Shown here: positions 1,016 to 17,037 of the stretch, piece by piece
Layout: the number at the start of each line of letters is the position of its first letter
Position numbering within the stretch: position 1 is the first letter of the stretch
IMG/VR virus record: IMGVR_UViG_3300021962_000688
Location: 1-22,961 of that record
Direction: 5' to 3' (one strand)
Length of the DNA stretch: 22,961 nt
From: a virus
The notes under the pieces: model-generated
What the model was told of the DNA's origin: nothing
The model's input: the letters and a program-made list of their open reading frames with translations, nothing else
Database searches by the model: none
Program-made: the position numbers and the translations under genes

Positions 1016-1336
1016 ATGCTAAATAAAATTCTCTACTCCTTGTGTTCCGAGGAGGTCAAGCTCGTGCTGAAGCGGATGGAAGACCGTCCGAGCGACTTCA
1101 CGCACTTTCAACCTGTGCTGGCCACCAACGTGAGCCAAGACCCTACCAAGTTCAAGCTGACTTCACCGCCCCCATGGGCTCCTGCCGTATCACTGGCCGA
1201 ACCAGACCGCCGCTGGCGGATGCTGATCGAGTCGGGCATCTTTTCCAGATTTGAATCCTACGTACTGCGTCGCCGACTGCGACAGCTCGACATCAAGGCT
1301 ACCCACCAAAAGATCTACGAGGTTTTGTTTAAGTAA
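1016..1336 (+). CDS. phage protein, 106 aa, function unknown
   Basis: Starts with MLNKILYSLCSEEVKLVLKR, a helical segment. A proline-containing middle follows (SPPPWAPAVSLAEPDRRW, about residues 49-66), then a basic helical end with RRRLRQLDIKATHQKIYEVLF. I do not recognise a family; a small DNA- or polymerase-associated protein is possible because the charge is basic and the gene is coupled to the polymerase, but nothing in the sequence shows this. An AAGGA ribosome-binding site at 1004-1008 supports the ATG. The TAA stop shares one base with the polymerase ATG (TAATG), so translation is likely coupled. Confidence 0.7.
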   Translation: MLNKILYSLCSEEVKLVLKRMEDRPSDFTHFQPVLATNVSQDPTKFKLTSPPPWAPAVSLAEPDRRWRMLIESGIFSRFESYVLRRRLRQLDIKATHQKIYEVLFK

Positions 1337-3192
1337 TGCAGTTTATAACATTAGACTTCGAGACTTATTACGACAGGGAATTCAGTCTTACGAAGCTGAC
1401 GACTGAAGAGTATGTGCGCGACGACCGGTTCGAGATCATCGGCGTCGGCATCAAGGTGAACGACGAGGTGACGCAGTTCTACTCTGCGCCGCTGGACGTG
1501 CTGAAGGAAGTCCTTACAGAAAAGTACGACTGGGCTAATTCAATTTGTATCGCCCACAACGCGCAGTTCGACGCGGCCATTCTGACGTGGAAGTTGGGGA
1601 TAAAGCCGTACTTCTGGGTGGATACGTTGGCGCTGGCCCGTGCCATAGATGGGCTGGAGGTGAGTGGCAGTTTGAAGACTGCTGCGGAGCGGCATGGGCT
1701 GGGCGTCAAGGGTGACGAGGTAATCAACGCACTCGGGAAACGCCGACGGGACTTCAGCCGAGACGACCTGCAACGATATGGGACTTACTGCATCAACGAC
1801 GTGGACCTTACGTGGAAGTTGTATTGGGTATACGAGCCGCATGTGAGTTCTACCGAGCTGGAAGTTATCAGCATTACCACGAAGATGTTTAGTGAACCGG
1901 CGCTGGAGTTAGATCTCCCTCTGCTGGAGCAGCACTTGGAGGAAGTTAAAGACCGTAAGGAACAGTTGCTGGATGGGCTGGGGTTCCATCCGGGGCTGCT
2001 GGCGTCTAACCCGCAGTTCGCCGATGTACTGAGGTCGCTGGGTGTTACGCCGCCGACCAAGGTGTCCCTTACTACGGGAAAGTCAACCTATGCGTTCGCA
2101 AAAAGTGATGCAGAATTCAAGTTGCTGCTGGAACACGACGACCCGAGGGTGCAAGCTGTGGCGGCAGCGAGAGTGGGAGTTAAATCTACGCTGGAGGAGA
2201 CGCGCACGGAGCGGTTCATCGAGATAGCCAAGCGTGGTCCGTTGCCGGTGCCTCTCAAGTACTACGCCGCCCACACTGGCCGCTGGGGTGGTTCCGACAA
2301 AGTGAACCTACAGAACTTACCGAGCCGTGGAGACAACGCTAACACTCTGAAGAAAGCCATCGTTGCACCAGAGGGGTATGTCGTAATCGACTCGGACTCT
2401 TCGCAGATCGAAGCCCGCGTGCTGGCATGGCTGGCTGGGCAGGACGACTTGGTAGAGGTGTTTGAGAAGAACAACGCCGAGATATTGGCGGGGGTTTCCA
2501 AGGAAGAAATGGTGAACGACCCCTACAAAATCATGGCGTCAAAGATATACAACACTCCGGTGGACAACATTAGTTCGTCAGAACGGTTCATGGGTAAGAC
2601 GGTAGTGCTGGGCTGCGGTTACGGCATGGGCGCTGCAAAATTCAAGATGCAGATTGCACAGTCGGGGGTATGGCTGAGTGAGTTGGAGGCGAGCGCCATC
2701 ATCAATACGTATCGCACGACGTACAGTCAGATTCCCGCATTGTGGAAGCAGGGGCAGGGGTGTCTGGAAGCCATGATGGACAATCAAGTAACCGACATCG
2801 GAGTTCGCCCGAGGGCCTTGACATTGACGCCGCATGGGTTCCTACTTCCCAGTGGTTTTCATTTGGATTACTCCGGCTTGGAGAAGGACTCTAACGGTGA
2901 GTTTTCTTACCTTACGAGGGCTGGCCGGAAGAAGATTTACGGCGGAAAAGTTATAGAGAACGTATGTCAGGCCGTCGCACGGTGCATCATCGCGGAGCAG
3001 ATGACATGGATAGCCAAGCGGTACAAGGTAGTACTGACAGTCCACGACGCCATAGCCTGCGTGGTTCCGGAAGACGAGGCTCAGACCGCCGCCGACTACA
3101 TAGAATCCTGCATGAGAAGACCCCCCGCGTGGGCCGAGGGGCTTCCACTAAACTGCGAATACGGAATCGGGAGAAGCTACGGTGAGTGTTGA
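1336..3192 (+). CDS. family A DNA polymerase with 3'-5' exonuclease domain, 618 aa
   Basis: Replicative polymerase of the Pol I/T7 type, without a 5'-3' exonuclease domain. The N-terminal DnaQ-like proofreading domain shows ExoI LDFETY (D7, E9), ExoII HNAQFD (D79) and ExoIII YCIND (Y151, D155). The polymerase domain shows TGRWGG...NLQNLPSRG, motif A DSSQIEAR (D354, E359), motif B R417xxxK421...YG (429-430) and motif C HDA (570-572). D354 and D571 are the expected metal-binding aspartates. Two features are unusual: the residue at K+4 in motif B, equivalent to E. coli Phe762, is Leu425, and the HDE triplet of motif C is HDA. Length is somewhat below T7 polymerase (about 700 aa). It heads the replication operon and overlaps the next gene by 11 bases. 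Confidence 0.97.
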   Translation: MQFITLDFETYYDREFSLTKLTTEEYVRDDRFEIIGVGIKVNDEVTQFYSAPLDVLKEVLTEKYDWANSICIAHNAQFDAAILTWKLGIKPYFWVDTLALARAIDGLEVSGSLKTAAERHGLGVKGDEVINALGKRRRDFSRDDLQRYGTYCINDVDLTWKLYWVYEPHVSSTELEVISITTKMFSEPALELDLPLLEQHLEEVKDRKEQLLDGLGFHPGLLASNPQFADVLRSLGVTPPTKVSLTTGKSTYAFAKSDAEFKLLLEHDDPRVQAVAAARVGVKSTLEETRTERFIEIAKRGPLPVPLKYYAAHTGRWGGSDKVNLQNLPSRGDNANTLKKAIVAPEGYVVIDSDSSQIEARVLAWLAGQDDLVEVFEKNNAEILAGVSKEEMVNDPYKIMASKIYNTPVDNISSSERFMGKTVVLGCGYGMGAAKFKMQIAQSGVWLSELEASAIINTYRTTYSQIPALWKQGQGCLEAMMDNQVTDIGVRPRALTLTPHGFLLPSGFHLDYSGLEKDSNGEFSYLTRAGRKKIYGGKVIENVCQAVARCIIAEQMTWIAKRYKVVLTVHDAIACVVPEDEAQTAADYIESCMRRPPAWAEGLPLNCEYGIGRSYGEC

Positions 3193-3391
3193 AATAGATG
3201 ATTATGCGGAGTACGTCACGGAAGCCCGAGCGTCACTGAAAGAGTTGGAGGACATGTGCCTTCACGGCGTGGTGGATGACAGCAAATTGACCTACGCGCA
3301 CATCGAGGAAGAAGTACGGTACTTGATCACCAGACTTCAGTTACTCCAGAGCTGGGCTGCGGAGAAGAAAGCGACGTGTAAATCCAGATGA
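3182..3391 (+). CDS. small acidic phage protein, 69 aa, function unknown
   Basis: Acidic, mostly helical protein (MSVEIDDYAEYVTEARASLK, then a helix with HIEEEVRYLITRLQLLQSWAAEKK at about residues 40-63). It may form a small helical hairpin. The GTG start at 3182 lies inside the end of the polymerase gene; GGGAG a few bases upstream is a plausible ribosome-binding site, and no later in-frame ATG fits. Its stop overlaps the nuclease start as ATGA. The position between polymerase and nuclease suggests a replication accessory, but no family was recognised. Confidence 0.65.
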   Translation: MSVEIDDYAEYVTEARASLKELEDMCLHGVVDDSKLTYAHIEEEVRYLITRLQLLQSWAAEKKATCKSR

Positions 3392-4053
3392 CTACGTGGT
3401 CCTACTCTTCTATCTCCCTGTTCAAGCAGTGTCCGAGGAAATACCACCGGCTGAAGGTAGTTCGAGACATCATCGAGCCAGATGCCGAGCACCTGATTTA
3501 CGGTAAAGAAGTACACAAGGCAGCGGAAGACTACGGGCGTGACGGCACGCCGATTCCCGCGAAGTACGGATTCATAAAGCCACACATCGACGCCCTGCTG
3601 GAGATAGAGGGAGAGAAGTACTTCGAGTACGAGATGGGGCTGACCAAAGACAAGCAGCCCTGCGGGTTCCATGACAAGGCCGCATGGTGGAGAGGTATCG
3701 CTGACTTGATGGTGATGCCCAAGGATGGAACCCAAGGGTTCATTGTGGACTACAAGACTGGGAAGAGCGCACGTTACGCCGACCCCAGTCAGTTGGAAAT
3801 TCTATCGCTCGCGGCGTTCGCTCACTTTCCCCATATCAAGAAGATAAAGGGTGGGTTGATGTTCGTAGTCTCTGAGGAGTTCCTCTCCGTAGAGCTTAAG
3901 AGAGACGACATCCCCGCATTGTGGGACAAGTGGGATGTGCCTACGACCAGACTGGATAAGGCATTCGAGTCCGGAGTCTGGAACGCGAGCCCTAATTTTA
4001 CCTGTCGCAAGTGGTGCCCCGTCACCGACTGCGAGCATAACGGGAGGTTCTGA
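3388..4053 (+). CDS. PD-(D/E)XK nuclease, Cas4/RecB-like, 221 aa
   Basis: Predicted DNA exonuclease of the RecB/Cas4 superfamily. Motifs in order: SYSSISLFKQCPRKY (residues 5-19), GKEVH with H43, RGIAD with D106, DYKTGK with D121 and K123, and a QLEIL segment with Q135 at the position of the usual QxxxY motif. C15 near the N-terminus and C206, C210, C215 near the C-terminus (CRKWCPVTDC) are arranged like the 4Fe-4S cluster cysteines of Cas4 and AddB, so an iron-sulphur cluster is likely though not provable here. Phage relatives supply nuclease activity for recombination or host DNA breakdown. ATGA overlap with the previous gene shows coupling; the HNH gene starts one base after its stop. Confidence 0.92.
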   Translation: MTTWSYSSISLFKQCPRKYHRLKVVRDIIEPDAEHLIYGKEVHKAAEDYGRDGTPIPAKYGFIKPHIDALLEIEGEKYFEYEMGLTKDKQPCGFHDKAAWWRGIADLMVMPKDGTQGFIVDYKTGKSARYADPSQLEILSLAAFAHFPHIKKIKGGLMFVVSEEFLSVELKRDDIPALWDKWDVPTTRLDKAFESGVWNASPNFTCRKWCPVTDCEHNGRF

Positions 4054-4054
4054 A

Positions 4055-4336
4055 ATGCCATACGTCAACAAGCCGAGGCCATACAAGAAAGAGTATCAGC
4101 AACAGAAGGAACGTGGAGAAGCGCCGACAAGGAAGAAACGGGCGCAGGCTAGGTATCAGATGGACAAGAAGGGAGTAGATAGAAAGGGCAAGGACATCGA
4201 CCACGTGACCCCGCTCTCGAAAGGCGGAAGCAACGGTGCAGGGAACTTGAAACTCACTACGCCAAGCAAGAACAGGAGTTTTTCCCGAAACTCTGACCAT
4301 ACCGTAAAGATAAACAAACCAACGAGGAAACGATGA
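4055..4336 (+). CDS. HNH endonuclease, 93 aa
   Basis: Small basic HNH protein. The N-terminus (MPYVNKPRPYKKEYQQQKERG) is Lys/Arg rich, as in many phage HNH proteins encoded beside replication genes. The core is DIDHVTPLSKGGSN (D49, H50), then GNLKLTTPSKNRSF, with N64 and N73 as the remaining conserved residues, so the motif is H-N-N. No CxxC zinc knuckle is present. In phages such enzymes may nick DNA for packaging, act as homing-type nucleases, or work in replication; which applies is unknown. CGGGAGG just upstream is a strong ribosome-binding site and rules out a longer in-frame ORF beginning inside the nuclease gene. Confidence 0.9.
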   Translation: MPYVNKPRPYKKEYQQQKERGEAPTRKKRAQARYQMDKKGVDRKGKDIDHVTPLSKGGSNGAGNLKLTTPSKNRSFSRNSDHTVKINKPTRKR

Positions 4337-4882: not shown

Positions 4883-6439
4883 ATGCAAATTGTAGACAAC
4901 AAACAACTGATTGTGCGGACCAAGAATCCGCACCGTATTACCGAAGCTATCCCGAATAGCAAAGTGGTAAACGTAGAAGAAGACATCCACGAAGTCGCGG
5001 TTGAGTGGGAGTTGGCCGAGGCGCAGATGCTACGCCGACTGCGTATCAAGAACGTGCCTTCGCCGATCATGCGGGACTACGACTGGCCGGGGGTGTTCCC
5101 TCCCATGACCCACCAGAAGACGACGGCAGAGTTTCTGACGCTGCATTCCCGTGGGTTTTGTTTCAACGAGCAGGGTACAGGCAAGACGGCTTCGGCTATC
5201 TGGGCGTCGGACTACCTGATGAAAGAAGGGTACATCAACCGCGTGTTGATCGTATGCCCGCTCTCCATCATGCAGGCAGCGTGGGAAGCGGACCTGTTCA
5301 AGTTTGCTGTGCATCGCACTGTGGGTATCGCCCATGGCAACCGGGACAAACGCAAAGCTATCATCGCCGGAGACTACGACTACGTTGTGATTAACTACGA
5401 CGGTGTAGACATCGTAGAGAAAGAGATTGCGGCAGGGGGCTTCGACCTCATCATTATTGACGAGGCCAACAGCTACAAGAGCGCGTCCACCAAACGGTGG
5501 AAGTCTATGAAGAACTTAGTCACTTCAAGAACGTGGCTATGGATGATGACCGGCACCCCCGCTGCGCAGTCGCCGTTTGATGCTTACGGGTTGGCTAAGA
5601 TTTGCGTGCCAGACAACGTGCCTAAGTTCGCTACGACGTTTAGAGAGTCGGTGATGTACCAGCTTACTCGGTTCAAGTGGATTCCAAGACCGGAAGCCGC
5701 CGACCGGGTACATGCCGCGTTACAGCCCGCTATCAGGTTCACGAAGAAAGAGTGCTTGGACCTACCGGCTGTGACGTACGTGGACCGTGAAGCTCCGATG
5801 ACCCCGCAGCAGAAAAAGTACTACGACATAATGAAGAAGGAGTTTCTCCTACAGTCCGGGGACGAGGAGATTACGTCGGCTAATGCTGCTGTAAACTTCA
5901 ACCAGCTCATGCAGATCTCAGGCGGAGCTATCTACACCAACGACAAGAACGTGCTGGAGTTCGACGTAAGCAATCGACTCCGGGTGGTCAAGGAAGTCAT
6001 CGACGAATCCAGCAACAAGGTGCTGGTGTTCGTGCCATACCGGCATACGATTCAACTTCTCAAGGATTTCTTGACACGTGAGAGCGTCTCATTAGACATC
6101 ATCTCAGGTGAAGTCCCTATGGCTCGGCGTGGAACAATCATCCACGACTTCCAAACGAAGACCGACCCGAAGGTACTAATCATCCAGCCACTTGCTGCGG
6201 CGCACGGCATCACGTTGACCGCTGCTGACACTATCATCTGGTACTCTCCGGTAACGTCTACTGAGATATATCTACAAGCGAACGCTCGTATTGACCGCAA
6301 AGGTCAGACCAACCCGATGACGATTGTCCATGTACATGGAAGCCAGATTGAGCGTAGAGTGTACGCCGCATTGCAGGGGCGTTTGCTCAACCACACTAAG
6401 CTGATCGATCTCTACAAACAGGAACTCAATACCCCTTGA
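4883..6439 (+). CDS. SNF2-type superfamily 2 DNA helicase/translocase, 518 aa
   Basis: ATP-dependent DNA translocase or helicase. Motif I is NEQGTGKT (residues 95-102), motif II is DEAN (193-196), motif III TGTP (223-226), and the C-terminal RecA-like domain carries QPLAAAHGITL (435-445) and motif VI QANARIDRKGQ (465-475), typical of SNF2/Rad54-like proteins. It has no obvious extra domain beyond an N-terminal region of about 75 residues. In phages such proteins are thought to remodel replication forks or recombination intermediates, as T4 UvsW does. It follows the 89-aa gene by 3 bases with no clear ribosome-binding site, so translation is probably coupled. Its stop codon overlaps a promoter -35 element. 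Confidence 0.95.
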   Translation: MQIVDNKQLIVRTKNPHRITEAIPNSKVVNVEEDIHEVAVEWELAEAQMLRRLRIKNVPSPIMRDYDWPGVFPPMTHQKTTAEFLTLHSRGFCFNEQGTGKTASAIWASDYLMKEGYINRVLIVCPLSIMQAAWEADLFKFAVHRTVGIAHGNRDKRKAIIAGDYDYVVINYDGVDIVEKEIAAGGFDLIIIDEANSYKSASTKRWKSMKNLVTSRTWLWMMTGTPAAQSPFDAYGLAKICVPDNVPKFATTFRESVMYQLTRFKWIPRPEAADRVHAALQPAIRFTKKECLDLPAVTYVDREAPMTPQQKKYYDIMKKEFLLQSGDEEITSANAAVNFNQLMQISGGAIYTNDKNVLEFDVSNRLRVVKEVIDESSNKVLVFVPYRHTIQLLKDFLTRESVSLDIISGEVPMARRGTIIHDFQTKTDPKVLIIQPLAAAHGITLTAADTIIWYSPVTSTEIYLQANARIDRKGQTNPMTIVHVHGSQIERRVYAALQGRLLNHTKLIDLYKQELNTP

Positions 6440-8008: not shown

Positions 8009-10801
8009 ATGCGGGAGTTTCTTTCCAAAGTACTGTCTGATAAAGGGTGGTACTGCATAGTCGGGCTACGGTCTGGCAAGCCGACGAAACAGATTTTTGT
8101 AGAGTCATTGGATGAAGTTGAGGCGGTAGCTGACCGTCTCATGCAGGACGATTACAACGCTTACTTTGCCTGTGCCAAATACGAAACCAACAACGGGCGA
8201 GTCAAGGAAAACGCGGCTTACTTCAAGTCGGCGTGGCTCGACATAGACTGCGGTGAGGGGAAGGACTACCCCGACCAAGAGACTGCGGTCAATGCGCTGG
8301 TCAAGTTCTGCAATGACAACTACCTGTCTGTTCCCACGATTGTCGATTCCGGCAGGGGGCTGCACGTCTACTTTGTGTGGGAGGAAGACGTTGGAAGGGA
8401 GGAATGGACCCTAGTCGCGGAGCAGTTGAAGGCGCTGTGTCGGCAGGATGGACTCTACGCTGACCCCAGCGTGACGGCGGATGCGGCGCGGATTCTCCGA
8501 CTGCCGGGTTCCAAGAACTACAAAGTAGACCCGCCGTTAGATGTTGTGGTGCTGCTGGAAGGCGAGACTACTACCTACGAGAAACATAAATCTTGTATGG
8601 GAGTGGTGCCCGCTCTTCCAGAGAAGCCTGATTACATCTCGGACGAGCCGTCGGAACTTCAGAAGAGCCTGCAACAGAACCAGATTTTCCGGTTCAGCAC
8701 CATCTTGCAGAAGACCGCCGACGGGCTTGGTTGTGCGCAGATTCAGTACATCATAGAGCGCCCGCACGAGCGGGTTGAACCTTTGTGGCGTGCTGGTCTG
8801 TCCATCGCCAAGTTCTGTGTGGACTCGGACGTAGCGATTGGGATCGTGTCGGAAGGACGCAGCGACTACGATTACGACGTTGCTGTGCGGAAAGCAGAGG
8901 GGATTGTCGGCCCCTACACCTGCAAATCTTTTGAAGGACTCAACCCTCAAGGCTGTAGAAATTGTGCACACCGTAAGGTTCTCAATTCTCCCATCAGGCT
9001 GGGCATAGAAGTGCTTGAAGCGGAGGAAGGTGAGACGGTTCTGTTGACAGACCCTACGGGCAAGACCATGGAGTACACGGTACCGGAGATACCGGCACCC
9101 TACTTCCGTGCGAAGAACCGGGGCATCTACTGCAAGACCGACGACGACTCTATCCTGATTTACGAGAACGACTTGTATCTCATAAAGCGTATGCACGACC
9201 CGGTACGGGGAGACCTCGTGCTGGCCAAACTGCATCTACCAAAAGATACGCCGAAGGAAATCATCATCCCGCTCTCTACCCTGACTTCTACGGAGGAGCT
9301 TCGGAAGCTGCTCGCATCCTATGGAGTAATCAGTGGTGGTAAGTCGTTCGTCGCGATTCAAAACTACCTTATCTATTGTGCGAAGCAGCAACAACATGCG
9401 CAGGAAGCGGAGATTCTGCGTACTCAGTTCGGATGGGTGGACGACGACTCCAAGTTCGTTTTAGGTACCAAGGAGATCCACGCCGACGAAGTTCGTTACA
9501 GCCCGCCTTCAGAAGTGACAGCGCCGTATGCCAAGTTGATGCACGAGAAAGGTGAGCTGGTCGAGTGGAAGCAGGTCGTTAATACCTACAACCTGCCGGG
9601 GTTCGAGCCACATGCGATGGCTATCTTTTTCGGACTCGGGGCACCCTTGATGAAGTTCACAGGTTACAACGGCCTTATGGTGAACTTGCTCAACAGAGAG
9701 TCAGGCACCGGGAAGAGTACGATCCTCAAGGTTATCAACAGCATCTACGGGCACCCCACTGACCTCATGGGTCAGGAGCGGGATACGCTCGCGCACAAGA
9801 TGTTCCGTCTGGGGGTGAGCAACAACTTACCAGTTACGAACGATGAGCTGACCAACATGCGGGGGGAGGACGTTTCCATCTACAGCTACGGCGTGTCGAA
9901 CGGCAGGGGTCCGGGGCGTATGCAGGCTCAGGCCAACATGGAGCGTAAGAACGACACTACGTGGTCTACCATCAGCATCTCTTCCAGCAACTCCTCTCTG
10001 ATAGAGAAGATTGGTGCAGTAAAAGTTTCATCCACAGGTGAGACGGCGCGAATCATCGAGTATCAGATTGATACGACAGACAACCTGACCAAAGACGAAG
10101 CCTATCAGTTGTTTGAAGGCCAGCTCATGCGCAACTACGGTATTGCAGGGGTGGTGTTCCTACAGTACTGCGTCAAGCACAAAGCTGAAGTTATAAAGCT
10201 GTACGAGAAAACTCGGGCAGAGTTCGATGCCATGGCCCAGTTCACCAATCGCGAGCGGTACTACTCGGCAGGCTATGCCTGCGCGTTCACGGCGGCAATC
10301 ATCGCTCACAAGCTGGGGCTGCACGACATAGACTACAAACGAGTCATGCAGTGGGCTATCGACAATCTGGTGCCCGAGAACAAGAACATGCTCACGCAGA
10401 GCCGAGCGACATACAAAGAGAACCTTGGCGACTTCATCAACCAGAACTTGAGCAGCATCCTCGTCATCAACGGGCCGGTGAATTCAGGACAGCCGATGCC
10501 CGACATTTATCCGAGGGACAAGCTGATCATCCGCATTGAGCCGGATACTTCGCGTATGTTCATAGCAACGAAGCCGCTCCGAGAGTATTGCGCCAGCGGC
10601 CAGCTCATCCTCCGGGACATGCTCCGTGTACTGAAGACTGAGGGGGTATTTCTTGGTGAGGTGAAGAAGCGGATGAACAAAGGCACCAAGCTGGCGGGTC
10701 CGCCAGTCAACGCTTATCTGTTCACGATGGATGAGACTATCTTGGGATTAGACGACCTTATAGAGACAGTGGCGGCTACAAATGATAATTCACGGGATTG
10801 A
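8009..10801 (+). CDS. archaeo-eukaryotic-type primase fused to P-loop helicase, 930 aa
   Basis: Replicative primase-helicase. The N-terminal primase (PrimPol/RepB-like) domain, about residues 50-190, has motif I WLDIDCG (D78, D80), motif II SGRGLHVYF (H119) and motif III RILRLPGSKNYK (161-172). A cysteine-rich element, C305, C316, C319 and H321, probably binds zinc. The C-terminal helicase domain, resembling DUF927-type ATPases, has Walker A SGTGKST (565-571) and a Walker B-like TNDE with D612 and E613. The enzyme would make primers and unwind DNA for the family A polymerase, replacing the DnaG-DnaB pair. AGGA at 7998-8001 gives spacing suited to the ATG. The last 20 bases overlap the 81-aa gene. 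Confidence 0.93.
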   Translation: MREFLSKVLSDKGWYCIVGLRSGKPTKQIFVESLDEVEAVADRLMQDDYNAYFACAKYETNNGRVKENAAYFKSAWLDIDCGEGKDYPDQETAVNALVKFCNDNYLSVPTIVDSGRGLHVYFVWEEDVGREEWTLVAEQLKALCRQDGLYADPSVTADAARILRLPGSKNYKVDPPLDVVVLLEGETTTYEKHKSCMGVVPALPEKPDYISDEPSELQKSLQQNQIFRFSTILQKTADGLGCAQIQYIIERPHERVEPLWRAGLSIAKFCVDSDVAIGIVSEGRSDYDYDVAVRKAEGIVGPYTCKSFEGLNPQGCRNCAHRKVLNSPIRLGIEVLEAEEGETVLLTDPTGKTMEYTVPEIPAPYFRAKNRGIYCKTDDDSILIYENDLYLIKRMHDPVRGDLVLAKLHLPKDTPKEIIIPLSTLTSTEELRKLLASYGVISGGKSFVAIQNYLIYCAKQQQHAQEAEILRTQFGWVDDDSKFVLGTKEIHADEVRYSPPSEVTAPYAKLMHEKGELVEWKQVVNTYNLPGFEPHAMAIFFGLGAPLMKFTGYNGLMVNLLNRESGTGKSTILKVINSIYGHPTDLMGQERDTLAHKMFRLGVSNNLPVTNDELTNMRGEDVSIYSYGVSNGRGPGRMQAQANMERKNDTTWSTISISSSNSSLIEKIGAVKVSSTGETARIIEYQIDTTDNLTKDEAYQLFEGQLMRNYGIAGVVFLQYCVKHKAEVIKLYEKTRAEFDAMAQFTNRERYYSAGYACAFTAAIIAHKLGLHDIDYKRVMQWAIDNLVPENKNMLTQSRATYKENLGDFINQNLSSILVINGPVNSGQPMPDIYPRDKLIIRIEPDTSRMFIATKPLREYCASGQLILRDMLRVLKTEGVFLGEVKKRMNKGTKLAGPPVNAYLFTMDETILGLDDLIETVAATNDNSRD

Positions 10802-11027
10802 GTTCGAGGTTAAATGGAGTGAGTTCAAGCCTTACTCCTCTTTCTTTATACCCTGCTTGGACTGGGAAGCTGCGCGTGAAGTGGTATTCCACGAGTGCGA
10901 AGAGCGCGGAATACCCGTTGTCATCCGATTCTCAGTTGAAGACAACATCCGTGGGATAAGAGTCTGGCGCGTCAAGGAGCCCCAAGACCAGCCTCCATCA
11001 TCGCCGCCTTCAGAAGTTTCGGATTGA
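10782..11027 (+). CDS. conserved small phage protein, 81 aa, function unknown
   Basis: Begins MIIHGIEFEVKWSEFKPYSS and continues FFIPCLDWEAAREVVFHECE, then IPVVIRFSVEDNIRGIRVWRV, an alternating strand-helix-strand pattern, ending in a Pro/Ser-rich tail. I have the impression that similar proteins follow primase-helicase genes in other phages, but no function is known. The start overlaps the primase stop by 20 bases and no clear ribosome-binding site is seen, so expression is presumably coupled. The Pro/Ser tail (about the last 18 codons) is also read antisense by the end of the giant virion gene, an unusual convergent overlap of 56 bases. Confidence 0.75.
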   Translation: MIIHGIEFEVKWSEFKPYSSFFIPCLDWEAAREVVFHECEERGIPVVIRFSVEDNIRGIRVWRVKEPQDQPPSSPPSEVSD

Positions 11028-14000
11028 AGGACGCTCCGAAGATTGCTTCCCGTTCACGCTGCTTGCGCATGTCATACGACTTTTCTTTGGTCTCGGGAGT
11101 AATAGGGTTGCTGCGACCCAGCTTGGAACGATTGAAGTCGTAGATTTCTTTGTTGATCTCCCGAATTCCGTCCGTATCGCCCGCTTGTCTCGCACCCCAC
11201 AAATCATCCAGCAGCCCGTTGCGGCGCTCCTGCGACTTACGCTCGAAGTCTTTCATTATGGCGATCTTAGAGTAGGCATCGTTCACGTCATTCGGAGAGA
11301 AACCGACAAGAGACATGAAGACACCGTAAGCACTGGGGTCGTCCACGATCTTATACCCCTTAGAGTTAACAACTCCTTCGGTAGCAAACCGGACAGACCT
11401 GAGTACGCTTTTTGCCATAGAAGGGGTCATGGTTTCTAGCCCCTTCATGGTGTCGCCTTCGATTACCTGCTGTGAACCTTTGACGATATTGTTCACGATG
11501 CTGAGTGCCGGGCCACCTCCCTGCTCTAAGATGTACGTAGAGAGTCCAATTTCCGCCAGCCGCTTTTCGTCGGGACGCCAGAGCAAATCTCCGAAACCCG
11601 TGCGAGTACCAAGATTCAAATTAAGTAACGCGCCTATAGGGCCACGGTAGCCTGCGGCACCGAAGGTAGCCTCTGCCCATTTATCGAAGTCGAACGGCTC
11701 ATCCTCGTCTCCGAACATCCCAGTCAAGAGAGACGCCATCAAGTTGATACCGCCGAAGATCGGCATACCTTTAGCCCCCGCGAAAGCATAGGCCATGGCG
11801 TTGATTCCCATGAACTGCTTTGCTGCCAACTTTTTGGTTTCTTTGTCCGCCCCTGCAAACACCGTCTTGAACAACTTGCACTGCAAGTAGATCTGATTGA
11901 GCGCAAACCGCTTGAACACCCCAAAGACTTTTCCGGGTCCAGTCTGGAATAACTGAGGCCCCAACTCGGACATGGCGTTACCATGCGCAAATTCAATCAG
12001 ATCCAAGGCATAGTCGGTGGCTTTAGATTCCGACATCCCACTCTTTCTAGCCAATTTGTATGCAGCAAGTAGAGTGACTTCACGGTTGTACCGCTCGGCG
12101 TTCTGGAACGCCCATCCCAGAGCCTGTTCCGCTTTTGCCATCTTATATTTCAGTTTGTTTTCAGGATCTGAGACACCAAGGTTACGCATCTCCATCAAGT
12201 CCTGCCCAGTCGAACGACGGACAGCGCCCCGCTGTACCGCGTTGTAATAGAGCTTCTCGTACTCAGGATCCAGCTTAGCCTTCTTGCCCGCAAACGACTT
12301 ATCAGACAAATTCAGACCAAATACATCGAAGGAGGAGTTCGTATCCTGCCCCCCAGCAAAGTACATCTTGCTGGCTTCGTTCATCGCAGAGATAGTCGCA
12401 CCCCACCCGAACTTCCCGCCGAGCAACGGCGCTACCACAATCGGAAGCTGCGTGATGTTGATGATCGCCGACGACACATTTCCAAGAATGAACCAACGAT
12501 AAGCATTATGGCCCGCAGCGGAAGCGAATCTGCCCATCTTGGTCTTCTGTATAGGGTTCTTCCAGAATCCCTCGCTCCTGTTGATCGTAGCCTCTACTGC
12601 CTCGGACCATTCCTGAGGCAAATCTTTCGCCGCAGCCTTTGCCTTGGTTATAGTTTCGTCCAACTTTCTGACAGAATTAAACTGCTCGATGTTGATAGCC
12701 ATACGGGTGCCCACGTCGGCGAAGTTCGCCAGCGCGTCATTACGGTACCCGGCGTAACCTTCTCGGCGCTTGAATGATTGCATCACCGACTGGTTGGAGA
12801 ACATATCCAGATATATGGAATAGATTCCCTCCATGACCTCATCGCGAGATTTAGTCATCGGGTCAGACGGAGCACTACTAGATTTCAACTTTTCCTTAAG
12901 TACCTTGATGACGGCTTGCATCTCCTTGAGCGGCATCATCGACTCAAGTTGGGCTTCGGTCGGCTTGATGTACTCTTTGATGTCTTTGTCTTGCACTCCA
13001 TCCTGCTTCAAGAACCGCACAAACTTACGTGCTTCGGCGGCAGTCTCAAACGCGGAGACTCCTTCCTTACCGTCCGGAGCTACGTACCGTACCCAGAAAT
13101 CTCCTCGGCGATACAGCGGGAAGTACGGATCAATCCGCTTCTTCATCAACTCGTTCAGAGTCTTACCGGCACTGCCAAGCAGCTCCGGCTTATTCAGCGC
13201 GTCCATAAATTCTTCGGATAGCTGCCTGTACTCGTTCCTCAGATCGTAGTAGAGCTTGGCGAGTTCAGGATACTTCTTTTCAAATTCTTGGAATTCGTCG
13301 AACAACTTCTTCAGTTCGGGGTCGTTCTGCACGCGGTCGTAATCTTCTTCCAGCTCTTTCATCAACGCTTTGTCGTTTGCGGCCTTAGCCGCAGCGTACC
13401 GCTTGTCGATGTCGAACTTGACCTGCTCGATTGACGACTCGTGCATGAAGTCGAAGAGTTTTCTTACGACTCTAGGGTCGTACTTAGCCGTGACTTTTCT
13501 CGCCGTGAGAATAAACTTCTCTATCTTCTGCTTACGATTAGCGACGTTTACGTCACGCGCAGCGGCAATGTTGTTGATAGATTTAAGCGCGGAAGAAAGC
13601 ACGGGGCTGTACTTCTCTACAATCTCGGCGATCTGCGTGACACTGAGCAAGCTCAGGTATGCTTGCTTGGCAAACCGAGACAGCCCCTCAAGCACGTCTC
13701 GTGCAAACTCAAGCTGCGGTTTGGCTACAGGCAGCGATTCAATCTTCTTATCAACCCACTCCAGCATCCTCCGGGCCATCGGCATAGTCGGCGGGGTGTA
13801 CCGAGCGTCACTCAGCTCCTCATCCGTCGCCGTCATGTACCCTGTGGGTTTAGCTTCCTCTACTTTTTTATCTTTTGTGGGGGCCGCTGTTTGAGCCTTT
13901 GCGTCATCCGCACGCTTGTAGGTAAGCTGCGCCGCACCGTAAGCGATGTCCACGATGTCTTGTGTGGTGGGTTCATAGTTTGGAATACCCAACCGGTTGA

Positions 14001-17000
14001 GGATGGCTTTAACTCCATCCATGATGTATCGGAAGAACGTACCCAGCGGGGTGTTGACCTTGGCAATGGCTTTCGGGCTGATCCCGCGTTCTACCGCTTC
14101 AGACACGAAGTATGCAATCGCTTCATCGCCCTGAATTTCCGAGCGTGTGTTTGCGGGGATGCGCGCTAGAGCCGCTTTAGCAATAGAAACTTCCAGCTCG
14201 CGGCCCTTGCCACTGCCCCACTCACGGACTTTATCTATCAGATACTTGTAGTTTGTCTTCCCTACAAGCCGCTCCATGCCGACATGTGCGCCGACTTCGT
14301 GCATGAAGACACTGATCTCTTTCCCCTTGGGAATACGCTTGGTAAAGAGCGCCGCTTTCTTACCACCGACTTCTGCAACAGCCATCGCCCTCTGAGGAAC
14401 GCCTTTCATCCCCGCCGCTCTAGGCGTAGTCGTTATACGGATGTCTTCGTTCTCTGGCTCTCTACCCAAGAAACCTTTTATGACTTCACGTGCCTTGGCG
14501 GGCGTAGTCGCCTTAATCTTTTCCTCTGCGGGGGCTTCGGCAAAACCCCGCTGCAATTCGTCAAGAAACTCTTCGTTTTCCGGTTTTTTCAAAAAATTCT
14601 TGAACCGGGATACAGGCGCGCGTTCTTTAAGGTCGGGGATGGCCTTTTCCGCTACAGTAAGATACTGCATCGGATCTTCGCCCTTGGGGATATTACCCAC
14701 TAGGCTTTCAGCATCCTCTCGAAGCCGTTCATATTCCGCGCGTCTACCGGTAACTTTTTCTATATCAGGAACCGTAAGAGTCTCAAACGCCCCACCCTCT
14801 CCCGTGACTTCAGTAAGTTCTTCCTGTGCTTCTGGGGTGGCCGCTTCAACTCGCGCCTCTTTCTCTGCTACAACGCGCTCTCTACGTCGGTCTGCGGCAC
14901 GCAGCCCCTTGAGCCGTTCTCGTACGGAAGCCTTCTCAACATCGGTCAACGTTGCCTCAAATTGAGCTTGTTCGGTAGGACCAGAGTAAGGGAGCGCTTC
15001 TTTCTCTGGTAATTTTCCTACGTGCTTATCCCCAAGAAGTTGAGCTATAGCCGCGTTCCTTCCGGCAACACGTTCTATTGCGGTGTAAGCGTTTTTGTCC
15101 TGCTCGATAACCGGAATAAGCTCAGGTGCGCTTATGCCTTCAGGTATAGGACGAAGTTCTCTTTCCGGGGCCAAAGAACTCAAAGCAGACAGAACTCTCT
15201 TCTTCTGATTTGGGTTCTTTATGTTTTCTTCAGTCAAAGAACGCAGTTTAGCTACCTGCTCCGGCGTCTCGTACGGCTTATCGGCTAGTACCTCTACTAC
15301 TTTGCTTTTTGGACTGAACTTGAAATCCGACACCAACATATCGCGAGTCAGAAGTTTCGGAGCCTCCGTTTCGACTGGGATTTCTGGTGCGATAGGTGTT
15401 TCAGGAGGCGCAACGACTACGGGCTCTCCCGGCGCAGGCTTACCTTTAGCAACGGCTTTAGCCACCTCTTCTTGAATATCTTGGTCAGCTACGGTAGCGG
15501 CGTCTTCAGCTCCTTCAAGCTCCGTCTCCTGCAAATTACTTTGTTCTTCTCCTTGACGCCCTAATTCCACAAAATCTTCCGCAGTTAGCTCTACATCGCG
15601 GACTTCCGGTGCAACTTCTTCGTTAAGCCCGGGAAGAATCGGGGGAACATCTGTGCTACCCAGTCCACCCCCAACAGGAGGAGGAACAGGGACAGGAGTA
15701 AGAGCACTCCGCTCAGCAATAGGACCGGCGTCAATAGCAGGAGGAAGGGTTTCATCTATATCTTCTCCAGTAACGGGGGCTCCCGGCGCAGATTCCGGAG
15801 GAGGTTCCCGGCGTGCGAACTCTTCTTTCTCAATCGCGCGAGTACGCAAGGCATCACTAAACCCGGGGACTGCACCGAATGCGCCACCCGCAATACCACC
15901 ACGCACCGCCGACTCTAGAATACGGTCGAACTCTTTGGACCCCCAGATGTCATCGCCTTCACGCACAAAGTTCTCGGCGGCGATGCTGACCGCTTCCTGC
16001 GCGGCTTCAGTCGCGGCTTCAGTTGCTACGCCTTTACCAATACCTAACGCTGTTCTACCAGCAAGGTCGGCGACTAAAGAATTAAGCTGCTTACGTTCAC
16101 CAATCTTCTTGATGACTTCCGCTTGAAACGATACGGGCTTGGACTTGAACGCCTTCAGTACCTGCAACGGCAGAATAGAATCCAGCGCAGCGGCGAACCC
16201 ACCACCCAAAACAGCAGCGGCAGGGGCAAGTTCCCCGGTGTTCTCATAGATGTTCTGGAAAATTTCAGGCGCACTAAGCCCAAGACCTCCAGCGTAGGTA
16301 CCGGCAATAGCCCCGGTTTCAGCGCCTTGAGACGCAGCAGCACCTAAGAAACTTGGAGCACGTCGCGCAACAGCAGCCTCGGCGGCTTCCTGTCTGATCG
16401 GTACGCTAGTAGGGAGTGCCTTGGCTCTGGCTTCAGCGGTCTTTCGGGCTACCTGTGCGGCAACGAGTTCATCCAGTTGTTTCTGCGCCGCTCGCTTTGC
16501 CAGCGTTCTTCCAGCTATTGCGCCGACGCCACCGGTACCAATCGTAGACGCTATGTTTGCGCCTTGTTCGCCAAGTGTTTCGAAAAGGAATGGCAGTACA
16601 TCACCGAGATTTTCTACATCTCTGAAGCTCTGGAACTGTGTGGGGTTTCTTTGCTGCAACGCCGCTTCTTTAGCGGCAGCTTCTTCCAACTGTTGCCTAG
16701 CGTAGTCATCTGCGCCAATAGCAGACCCAGCCAGACTGGGGATGATGTCGGTGATCGTAGATCCCATACGCGAGAAACTACGACCAAGCCCCGCACTCAA
16801 TGCTTCCATCGGAGACCGGTCAAGTTCAATCCCCGCAGCGATGTCTTCTATCGAACGCCCCTGCGGTATACCTGTTCGGGTATAAATATCGTCTTCCTCG
16901 GCCCCCTCTTCGGCAGGAGGTTGGTACATACCGAGCTGTTTCTGTACATAGGCAACCGCGTCATTCCCAGTAAAGTTTTCTGGTCCGACGACGGAATACT

Positions 17001-17037
17001 GCTTCCCAAAGGGAGTCGTGACTATGTACTTCGGCAT
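10972..17037 (-). CDS. giant ejection/polyvalent-type virion protein with putative zincin site, 2021 aa
   Basis: Probably packaged in the capsid and ejected with the DNA, like the T7 internal virion proteins but longer than T7 gp16 (about 1300 aa). The N-terminus MPKYIVTTPFGKQYSVVGPE is a small strand-rich domain common at the front of phage ejection proteins. Residues about 145-395 are Ala/Gly-rich and hydrophobic, suggesting membrane-active segments. A Pro/Glu linker (about 405-560) follows, then charged helical regions. At 913-918 HEVGAH, with DEAIAYF near E972, marks a putative metallopeptidase. Residues 1303-1318 (DPYFPLYRRGDFWVRY) resemble the large polyvalent-protein domains. Hydrophobic stretches occur near 1515-1542 and 1743-1776. 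ATG directly follows the stop of the 651-aa gene. Functions beyond virion location are inference. Confidence 0.85.
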   Translation of the reverse strand: MPKYIVTTPFGKQYSVVGPENFTGNDAVAYVQKQLGMYQPPAEEGAEEDDIYTRTGIPQGRSIEDIAAGIELDRSPMEALSAGLGRSFSRMGSTITDIIPSLAGSAIGADDYARQQLEEAAAKEAALQQRNPTQFQSFRDVENLGDVLPFLFETLGEQGANIASTIGTGGVGAIAGRTLAKRAAQKQLDELVAAQVARKTAEARAKALPTSVPIRQEAAEAAVARRAPSFLGAAASQGAETGAIAGTYAGGLGLSAPEIFQNIYENTGELAPAAAVLGGGFAAALDSILPLQVLKAFKSKPVSFQAEVIKKIGERKQLNSLVADLAGRTALGIGKGVATEAATEAAQEAVSIAAENFVREGDDIWGSKEFDRILESAVRGGIAGGAFGAVPGFSDALRTRAIEKEEFARREPPPESAPGAPVTGEDIDETLPPAIDAGPIAERSALTPVPVPPPVGGGLGSTDVPPILPGLNEEVAPEVRDVELTAEDFVELGRQGEEQSNLQETELEGAEDAATVADQDIQEEVAKAVAKGKPAPGEPVVVAPPETPIAPEIPVETEAPKLLTRDMLVSDFKFSPKSKVVEVLADKPYETPEQVAKLRSLTEENIKNPNQKKRVLSALSSLAPERELRPIPEGISAPELIPVIEQDKNAYTAIERVAGRNAAIAQLLGDKHVGKLPEKEALPYSGPTEQAQFEATLTDVEKASVRERLKGLRAADRRRERVVAEKEARVEAATPEAQEELTEVTGEGGAFETLTVPDIEKVTGRRAEYERLREDAESLVGNIPKGEDPMQYLTVAEKAIPDLKERAPVSRFKNFLKKPENEEFLDELQRGFAEAPAEEKIKATTPAKAREVIKGFLGREPENEDIRITTTPRAAGMKGVPQRAMAVAEVGGKKAALFTKRIPKGKEISVFMHEVGAHVGMERLVGKTNYKYLIDKVREWGSGKGRELEVSIAKAALARIPANTRSEIQGDEAIAYFVSEAVERGISPKAIAKVNTPLGTFFRYIMDGVKAILNRLGIPNYEPTTQDIVDIAYGAAQLTYKRADDAKAQTAAPTKDKKVEEAKPTGYMTATDEELSDARYTPPTMPMARRMLEWVDKKIESLPVAKPQLEFARDVLEGLSRFAKQAYLSLLSVTQIAEIVEKYSPVLSSALKSINNIAAARDVNVANRKQKIEKFILTARKVTAKYDPRVVRKLFDFMHESSIEQVKFDIDKRYAAAKAANDKALMKELEEDYDRVQNDPELKKLFDEFQEFEKKYPELAKLYYDLRNEYRQLSEEFMDALNKPELLGSAGKTLNELMKKRIDPYFPLYRRGDFWVRYVAPDGKEGVSAFETAAEARKFVRFLKQDGVQDKDIKEYIKPTEAQLESMMPLKEMQAVIKVLKEKLKSSSAPSDPMTKSRDEVMEGIYSIYLDMFSNQSVMQSFKRREGYAGYRNDALANFADVGTRMAINIEQFNSVRKLDETITKAKAAAKDLPQEWSEAVEATINRSEGFWKNPIQKTKMGRFASAAGHNAYRWFILGNVSSAIINITQLPIVVAPLLGGKFGWGATISAMNEASKMYFAGGQDTNSSFDVFGLNLSDKSFAGKKAKLDPEYEKLYYNAVQRGAVRRSTGQDLMEMRNLGVSDPENKLKYKMAKAEQALGWAFQNAERYNREVTLLAAYKLARKSGMSESKATDYALDLIEFAHGNAMSELGPQLFQTGPGKVFGVFKRFALNQIYLQCKLFKTVFAGADKETKKLAAKQFMGINAMAYAFAGAKGMPIFGGINLMASLLTGMFGDEDEPFDFDKWAEATFGAAGYRGPIGALLNLNLGTRTGFGDLLWRPDEKRLAEIGLSTYILEQGGGPALSIVNNIVKGSQQVIEGDTMKGLETMTPSMAKSVLRSVRFATEGVVNSKGYKIVDDPSAYGVFMSLVGFSPNDVNDAYSKIAIMKDFERKSQERRNGLLDDLWGARQAGDTDGIREINKEIYDFNRSKLGRSNPITPETKEKSYDMRKQREREAIFGASFNPKLLKAAMMEAGLGAP

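Follow-up and report, generated by a model that had tools for sequence, protein, structure and literature searches.

Polymerase gene and neighborhood

The window analyzed here is the entire virus record IMGVR_UViG_3300021962_000688, 22,961 bases in length (positions 1 to 22,961), in which no tRNAs were found. It carries a polA gene whose 618-amino-acid product consists of a 3'-5' exonuclease and a polymerase domain, with a 5' nuclease domain being absent from that product. The features of the gene and of its surroundings are as follows, with their basis in brackets.

1336 to 3192, plus strand: polA, family A DNA polymerase, 618 aa (profile matches, predicted structure)
1354 to 1362, plus strand: exonuclease motif I, D7 and E9 (invariant alignment columns)
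2350 to 2352, plus strand: Lys339 codon, at the position of E. coli Arg690, which is Lys in every window-clade row lacking Glu883 (alignment)
2395 to 2412, plus strand: motif A, D354-SSQI-E359, E. coli D705 ... E710 (alignment)
2524 to 2526, plus strand: Tyr397 codon, at the position of the triphosphate contact His734 of E. coli and His639 of Taq (alignment)
2584 to 2625, plus strand: motif B or O-helix, R417-FMG-K421-TVV-L425-GCG-Y429-G, residues 417-430 (phmmer, alignment, model)
2608 to 2610, plus strand: Leu425 codon, at the position of Phe762 in E. coli, Tyr526 in T7 and Phe667 in Taq (phmmer, alignment)
3043 to 3051, plus strand: motif C, H570-D571-A572, with the catalytic Asp882 kept and Glu883 replaced by Ala, whose codon is 3049 to 3051 (alignment, tree)
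3388 to 4053, plus strand: PD-(D/E)XK (RecB/Cas4-like) nuclease, adjoining polA (Pfam and PHROG matches)
4055 to 4336, plus strand: HNH endonuclease (Pfam match weak; start codon picked by eye)
4883 to 6439, plus strand: SNF2-family (SF2) DNA translocase/helicase (Pfam match)
8009 to 10801, plus strand: 930-aa primase/helicase (Walker A GTGKST within a DUF927 ATPase part; N-terminal region matching phage primases)

A Gam-like protein and a small HTH protein are also encoded near polA. On the minus strand, positions 10972-17037 encode an LPD39-domain protein of 2,021 aa, which matches "DarB-like antirestriction" or PLxRFG proteins of podoviruses and other phages.

Matches of the polA product to Pfam DNA_pol_A (E 9e-35) and PHROG 17 (E 4e-97), together with its fold, place it in family A. 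The AlphaFold2 model (mean pLDDT 85, pTM 0.82) has Bst, Taq and Klenow Pol I as its nearest structures and superposes on Bst and Taq Pol I with a VIA Z of about 27 (rmsd 3.8-4.1 over 495-528 residues). As seen in the alignment, all of the family A core residues are present (D354, E359, R417, K421, Y429 and D571, corresponding to Asp705, Glu710, Arg754, Lys758, Tyr766 and Asp882), including both the catalytic Asp and the steric-gate Glu of motif A, and the equivalent of Arg668 is likewise kept. The predicted proofreading site, formed by D7/E9 with H74-N75...D79 and Y151...D155, looks intact. The third carboxylate, Glu883, which is usual but not universal in family A, is missing, with A572 in its place, a variant feature that does not exclude membership in the family. 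Overall, these results indicate an enzyme of the established Leu762 type that serves an uncultured tailed phage as its replicative family A DNA polymerase.

Leu425 at position 762

The preliminary description had aligned Leu425 with Phe762 of E. coli Pol I, and this placement was borne out by three approaches. In a phmmer comparison with solved structures, motif B aligned ungapped to the Klenow sequence RRSAKAINFGLIYG, making R417 equivalent to R754, K421 to K758, L425 to F762 and Y429 to Y766. MAFFT alignments including E. coli Pol I and T7 DNA polymerase gave the same placement, and in the AlphaFold2 model L425 lies within a helix (residues 414-427) located where the O-helix is expected. No other residue was placed at position 762, and the enzyme did not cluster with Phe/Tyr polymerases, from which it is set apart by a branch with 100% SH-aLRT support.

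Leu was found at position 762 in all 204 distinct representatives of the Leu clade, and all six Leu codons were used there among 199 distinct relatives, a set that was found by a Leu-requiring motif and thus shows codon turnover rather than conservation. Given this constancy of the residue and the variety of its codons, Leu425 is not a product of chance or drift. Residues in column 762 were read by counting from Lys758, since intein-bearing rows probably shift the large alignment. The intein-like inserts lie right after Lys758-Thr of motif B (GKT^C...VVHN^C) in the polA genes of three relatives (L022, 966-3614; L023, 8001-10649; L111, 1272-3854), interrupting the same helix that carries position 762. 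Two further relatives have unusual polA regions. In one (L003, 1244-1501), a second copy of the first 86 polA residues, 94% identical, lies immediately upstream of the complete gene, a duplication that is either real or an assembly artefact, and in the other (L056, 2108-4726), an 873-aa polymerase frame is about 250 aa longer than usual and contains an odd motif-C-like stretch.

Origins and distribution of Leu762

In a tree of 104 polymerase domains, from which columns 762 and 883 were left out, all 89 Leu762 rows, the window polymerase included, fell on one side of the branch with 100% SH-aLRT support, and rows with Phe762 (E. coli, HMO-2011 type) or Tyr762 (T7) fell on the other. A broader set containing very divergent viral polymerases held three further Leu762 groups, distinguished by a motif A of the form QQE-P (30 rows) or by the strings GKVLVL (8 rows) and KSILLG (4 rows). 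Constraining all Leu762 rows to a single clade was rejected (p-AU 2e-5); therefore, Leu762 has more than one evolutionary origin and does not define a single lineage. A 2026 preprint on T7 described two monophyletic Leu clades (PMC13228545), and the present sample suggests at least two, perhaps four.

Leu-type polymerases had been said to be known mostly from environmental virus sequences, which proved inaccurate. The window polymerase matched 1,346 GenBank phage records, and among 24 of these, picked across the match ranking, all had Leu762; this sample favors the window's relatives, and two of its members derive not from cultured phages but from environmental or insect DNA. In addition, the Leu, Phe and Tyr types have all been reported as common among known tailed phages (PMC6302109). 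Leu762 is thus a known and common phage type.

Residues that vary together with Leu762

To examine which other positions change with Leu762, about 369 columns were scanned for a new residue that three or more of the four Leu groups have in common and that other rows seldom carry. Besides 762 itself, only positions 711 and 734 were returned. Position 711, the neighbor of the steric gate, is usually Leu in other polymerases; the three Leu groups that share a residue there have Pro, and the window group has mostly Ala. At position 734, among 239 representatives, Tyr was present in all 204 Leu762 rows and His in all 33 Phe/Tyr762 rows. In the broad set, His734 was present in 41 of 41 Phe/Tyr rows, and Tyr734 in the GKVLVL (8/8) and KSILLG (4/4) groups. 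The QQE group of Leu762 polymerases retains His734 (30/30), and hence Tyr734 is not required for Leu762 everywhere. An Asn845-to-Glu change considered as a further marker of Leu762 was rejected, as it appeared in one alignment only and was gone with a one-residue gap shift in another.

The contact at position 734 has been characterized in Taq polymerase, where H639 contacts the incoming triphosphate (PMC6345897) and the single change H639Y leaves 0.15 of the wild-type rate with lower accuracy (PMC11666352). By analogy, Tyr at 734 would be costly beside Phe762, given the low rate of Taq H639Y alone; this mutant shows the cost, not a rescue. We infer that Tyr734 and Leu762 may suit each other, each being costly alone.

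It is also conceivable, if rather unlikely, that Tyr734, together with the Ala883 and Lys690 described below, merely marks lineages by descent and is functionally unconnected with Leu762. In favor of this reading, a single origin of the Tyr734/Leu762 rows as a whole was not rejected (p-AU 0.079), and after correction for descent the tests of the 734/762 and 690/883 pairs had too few independent events, that of the 734/762 pair being without power. However, positions 734 and 883 belong to the active site by knowledge of the family, and Tyr734 is kept across divergent rows (55 of 57, with misalignment the probable cause of both exceptions) and reappears in two Leu groups placed apart by the best tree. 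Moreover, Lys690 is present in several lineages without Glu883 and in no row with Glu883.

Loss of Glu883 and the Arg690-to-Lys change

In the subclade of the window, motif C changed from HDE to HDA or HDS, and this change was paired with Arg690 to Lys. Among the 239 representatives, 125 had Glu883 with Arg690 and 114 had Ala or Ser883 with Lys690, with no exceptions. On the tree, the loss of Glu883 in the HMO-2011 group is separate from that in the window subclade. The pairing predicted Lys690 in the polymerase of phage phiYS40, which has Ser883, and this held. In the broad set, Lys690 was never seen with Glu883; the exceptions, all with Arg690, were two rows with Ser883, one with Asp883 and one with Gln883. 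The aligned sequences therefore point to a coupling of 690 and 883 that is strong, not absolute, and that was not significant after correction for descent, the independent events being too few.

The polymerase of phage Tt72 is active without the motif C carboxylate, and its S616A variant keeps 76% of activity (PMC9324360). By this precedent, Ala572 is compatible with an active window enzyme. Loss of Glu883 as a compensation for Leu762 was considered and rejected, because 109 representatives combine Leu762 with Glu883 and the Phe762 HMO-2011 group is also without Glu883.

Replication module

SNF2-linked polymerases have been proposed to unwind DNA themselves where no helicase is present (PMC9069017), which raises the question of whether the window polymerase makes up for an absent helicase by displacing strands. 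The SNF2 gene was found in 40 of 40 window-clade records, and some SNF2-linked PolAs displace strands in vitro (PMC9069017). Nevertheless, the 930-aa primase-helicase was also found in all 40 of these records, so that a helicase is probably not missing, although its unwinding role is putative. Strand displacement is not revealed by sequence, and we regard this explanation, after Keown 2022, as doubtful. The same primase-helicase matched (E 2e-13) the "putative integrase" of Rhizobium phage RHph_TM3_14A (L026, 22610-25693), which, judging from this match, is probably misnamed.

Ribonucleotide reductase (RNR) was found in 0 of the 40 window-clade records. SNF2-like and RecB-like genes beside polA with no RNR, as seen in the window, form the neighborhood described for Leu762 Group I.

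Lifestyle of the phage

For unknown viruses in metagenomes, position 762 serves as a marker of lifestyle and of how fast they replicate, and an association of Leu762 with temperate phages has been proposed from phage genomes (PMC6302109). The preliminary description had followed this proposal in linking Leu762 to slower or temperate lifestyles. That such a link has been proposed in print is correct; the lifestyle meaning itself did not stand, given the lytic and integrase-less phages that carry Leu762. As for "slower," this was measured for mutants, such as T7 Y526L with 97% of activity lost (PMC13228545), not for native Leu enzymes.

Leu762 was found by alignment in the PolA of Jerseyvirus wksl3, a member of a genus described as strictly lytic (PMC8425127), and in the PolA of phage KPP25, a close relative of which has been described as lytic and without an integrase (PMC13340246). 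Leu762 has also been reported for twelve virulent Bradyrhizobium elkanii phages (PMC12632393). Tyrosine integrases and resolvase-type/serine recombinases were each found in 0 of 40 window-clade records, which are incomplete (25 to 67 kb), so that the absence of an integrase from them is not proof. As a positive control, the same search found an integrase in 14 of 30 records of a sister Leu762 clade. Of the 14 relatives detected on scanning 84,980 prokaryote genomes, about seven were close, and most sat on short contigs; by comparison, more than 570 were seen in viral contigs. One candidate prophage, in the chromosome of a Dehalococcoidia metagenome-assembled genome (L109, about 8500-12800), was rejected; this phage polA fragment is flanked by N gaps and is most likely a misplaced viral contig.

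The absence of integrases and resolvases from the 40 records, together with the few close relatives in prokaryote genomes, indicates that the window clade, and with it this phage, is probably virulent. That Leu762 marks a temperate phage whose polymerase is slow and of high fidelity, a reading that follows Schmidt 2014 and Nasko 2018, is thus improbable here, in spite of the published association, the slowness of Leu mutants of Taq and T7 and the integrases of the sister clade, in view of the recombinase-free records of the window clade, the predominance of relatives in viral over bacterial sequences and the occurrence of Leu762 in strictly lytic Jerseyvirus and virulent Bradyrhizobium phages. 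Leu762 is not informative about lifestyle in any reliable way. Its use as such a marker is not warranted, since the phages that carry Leu762 include strictly lytic, integrase-bearing and integrase-less ones and since it arose more than once.

How native Leu762 polymerases may work

The change Y526L in T7 DNA polymerase abolishes 97% of the activity and renders the phage inviable, and according to the preprint reporting this, native Leu enzymes must carry compensating changes, which it does not name (PMC13228545). In the window polymerase, Leu425 occupies the place from which Phe762 (T7 Tyr526) would grip the incoming dNTP by its sugar. With the equivalents of R754, K758, Y766, D705, E710 and D882 kept, the enzyme has its two-metal core, the O-helix that binds the triphosphate and the gate against ribonucleotides. 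We infer that the dNTP pocket was rebuilt around Leu762 and that Leu is for this reason not crippling. Tyr in place of the His734 contact may supply the aromatic packing lost at 762, and the neighbor of the steric gate at 711 is usually small in the Leu762 type, which may form part of the same remodeling. The window subclade has also given up the auxiliary carboxylate Glu883, with Lys replacing Arg690, and the polymerase presumably works alongside the SNF2 translocase, the RecB-like nuclease and the primase-helicase.

Positions 734, 711, and 883 with 690 are named here, from alignment columns, as concrete candidate compensating residues. We tentatively propose that native Leu762 enzymes work via partner changes, with Tyr734 in one type and QQE-P plus His in a separately evolved type, in addition to a repeated loss of the motif C Glu with Arg690 to Lys in phages. 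If true, the compensations missing after the failure of T7 Y526L would be named and could be tested with two or three point mutants. Such covarying residues make the activity of native Leu762 enzymes testable, which is of relevance to phage biology and polymerase engineering. In a partial literature search, neither the T7 preprint (PMC13228545) nor Keown 2022 (PMC9069017) was seen to mention position 734 or its T7 equivalent in the context of Leu762, which does not establish priority. As a whole, a replicative polymerase of the established Leu762 type, with a remodeled pocket, in a probably virulent phage on whose lifestyle Leu762 is silent, is the explanation that we consider likely.

Comparison with known polymerases

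Within a partial literature search, the combination of Leu762, Tyr734, Ala883 and Lys690 is an undescribed variant of the already known Leu762 type. T7 DNA polymerase and E. coli Pol I share with the window enzyme the family A fold, motifs A, B and C and the proofreading domain, whereas they have Tyr or Phe762, His734, Glu883 and Arg690. The polymerases of the Thermus phages Tt72 and phiYS40 (PMC9324360) resemble it in a motif C (HDS) without carboxylate and, in phiYS40, in Lys690, but differ in Phe762 and His734. Similarly, HMO-2011-type PolAs have Lys690 and have lost Glu883 (motif C HDS), but they carry Phe762 and His734 and have DnaB and RNR as neighbors.

Closer likenesses are found among Leu762 phages. 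The PolA of Pseudomonas phage KPP25 (Kochitakasuvirus) has Leu762 and Tyr734 and matches over its full length with 33% identity, with a RecB-like nuclease and a helicase nearby; unlike the window polymerase it keeps Glu883, and the gene order differs. Leu762 Group I of Nasko et al. 2018 (PMC6302109) corresponds to the window in Leu762, in the SNF2-like and RecB-like genes beside polA and in having no RNR, this assignment being judged by residue and neighbors; the RecB-like gene of the window encodes a nuclease, not a helicase. Group I was read as temperate (PMC6302109), whereas the window clade is without integrases. The best GenBank phage match is the PolA of Rhizobium phage RHph_TM3_14A (MN988472), full length with 36% identity, which shares Leu762, Tyr734 and the gene order polA, HNH, RecB-like, SNF2 with the window, and which retains Glu883 and Arg690 where the window polymerase has Ala883 and Lys690.
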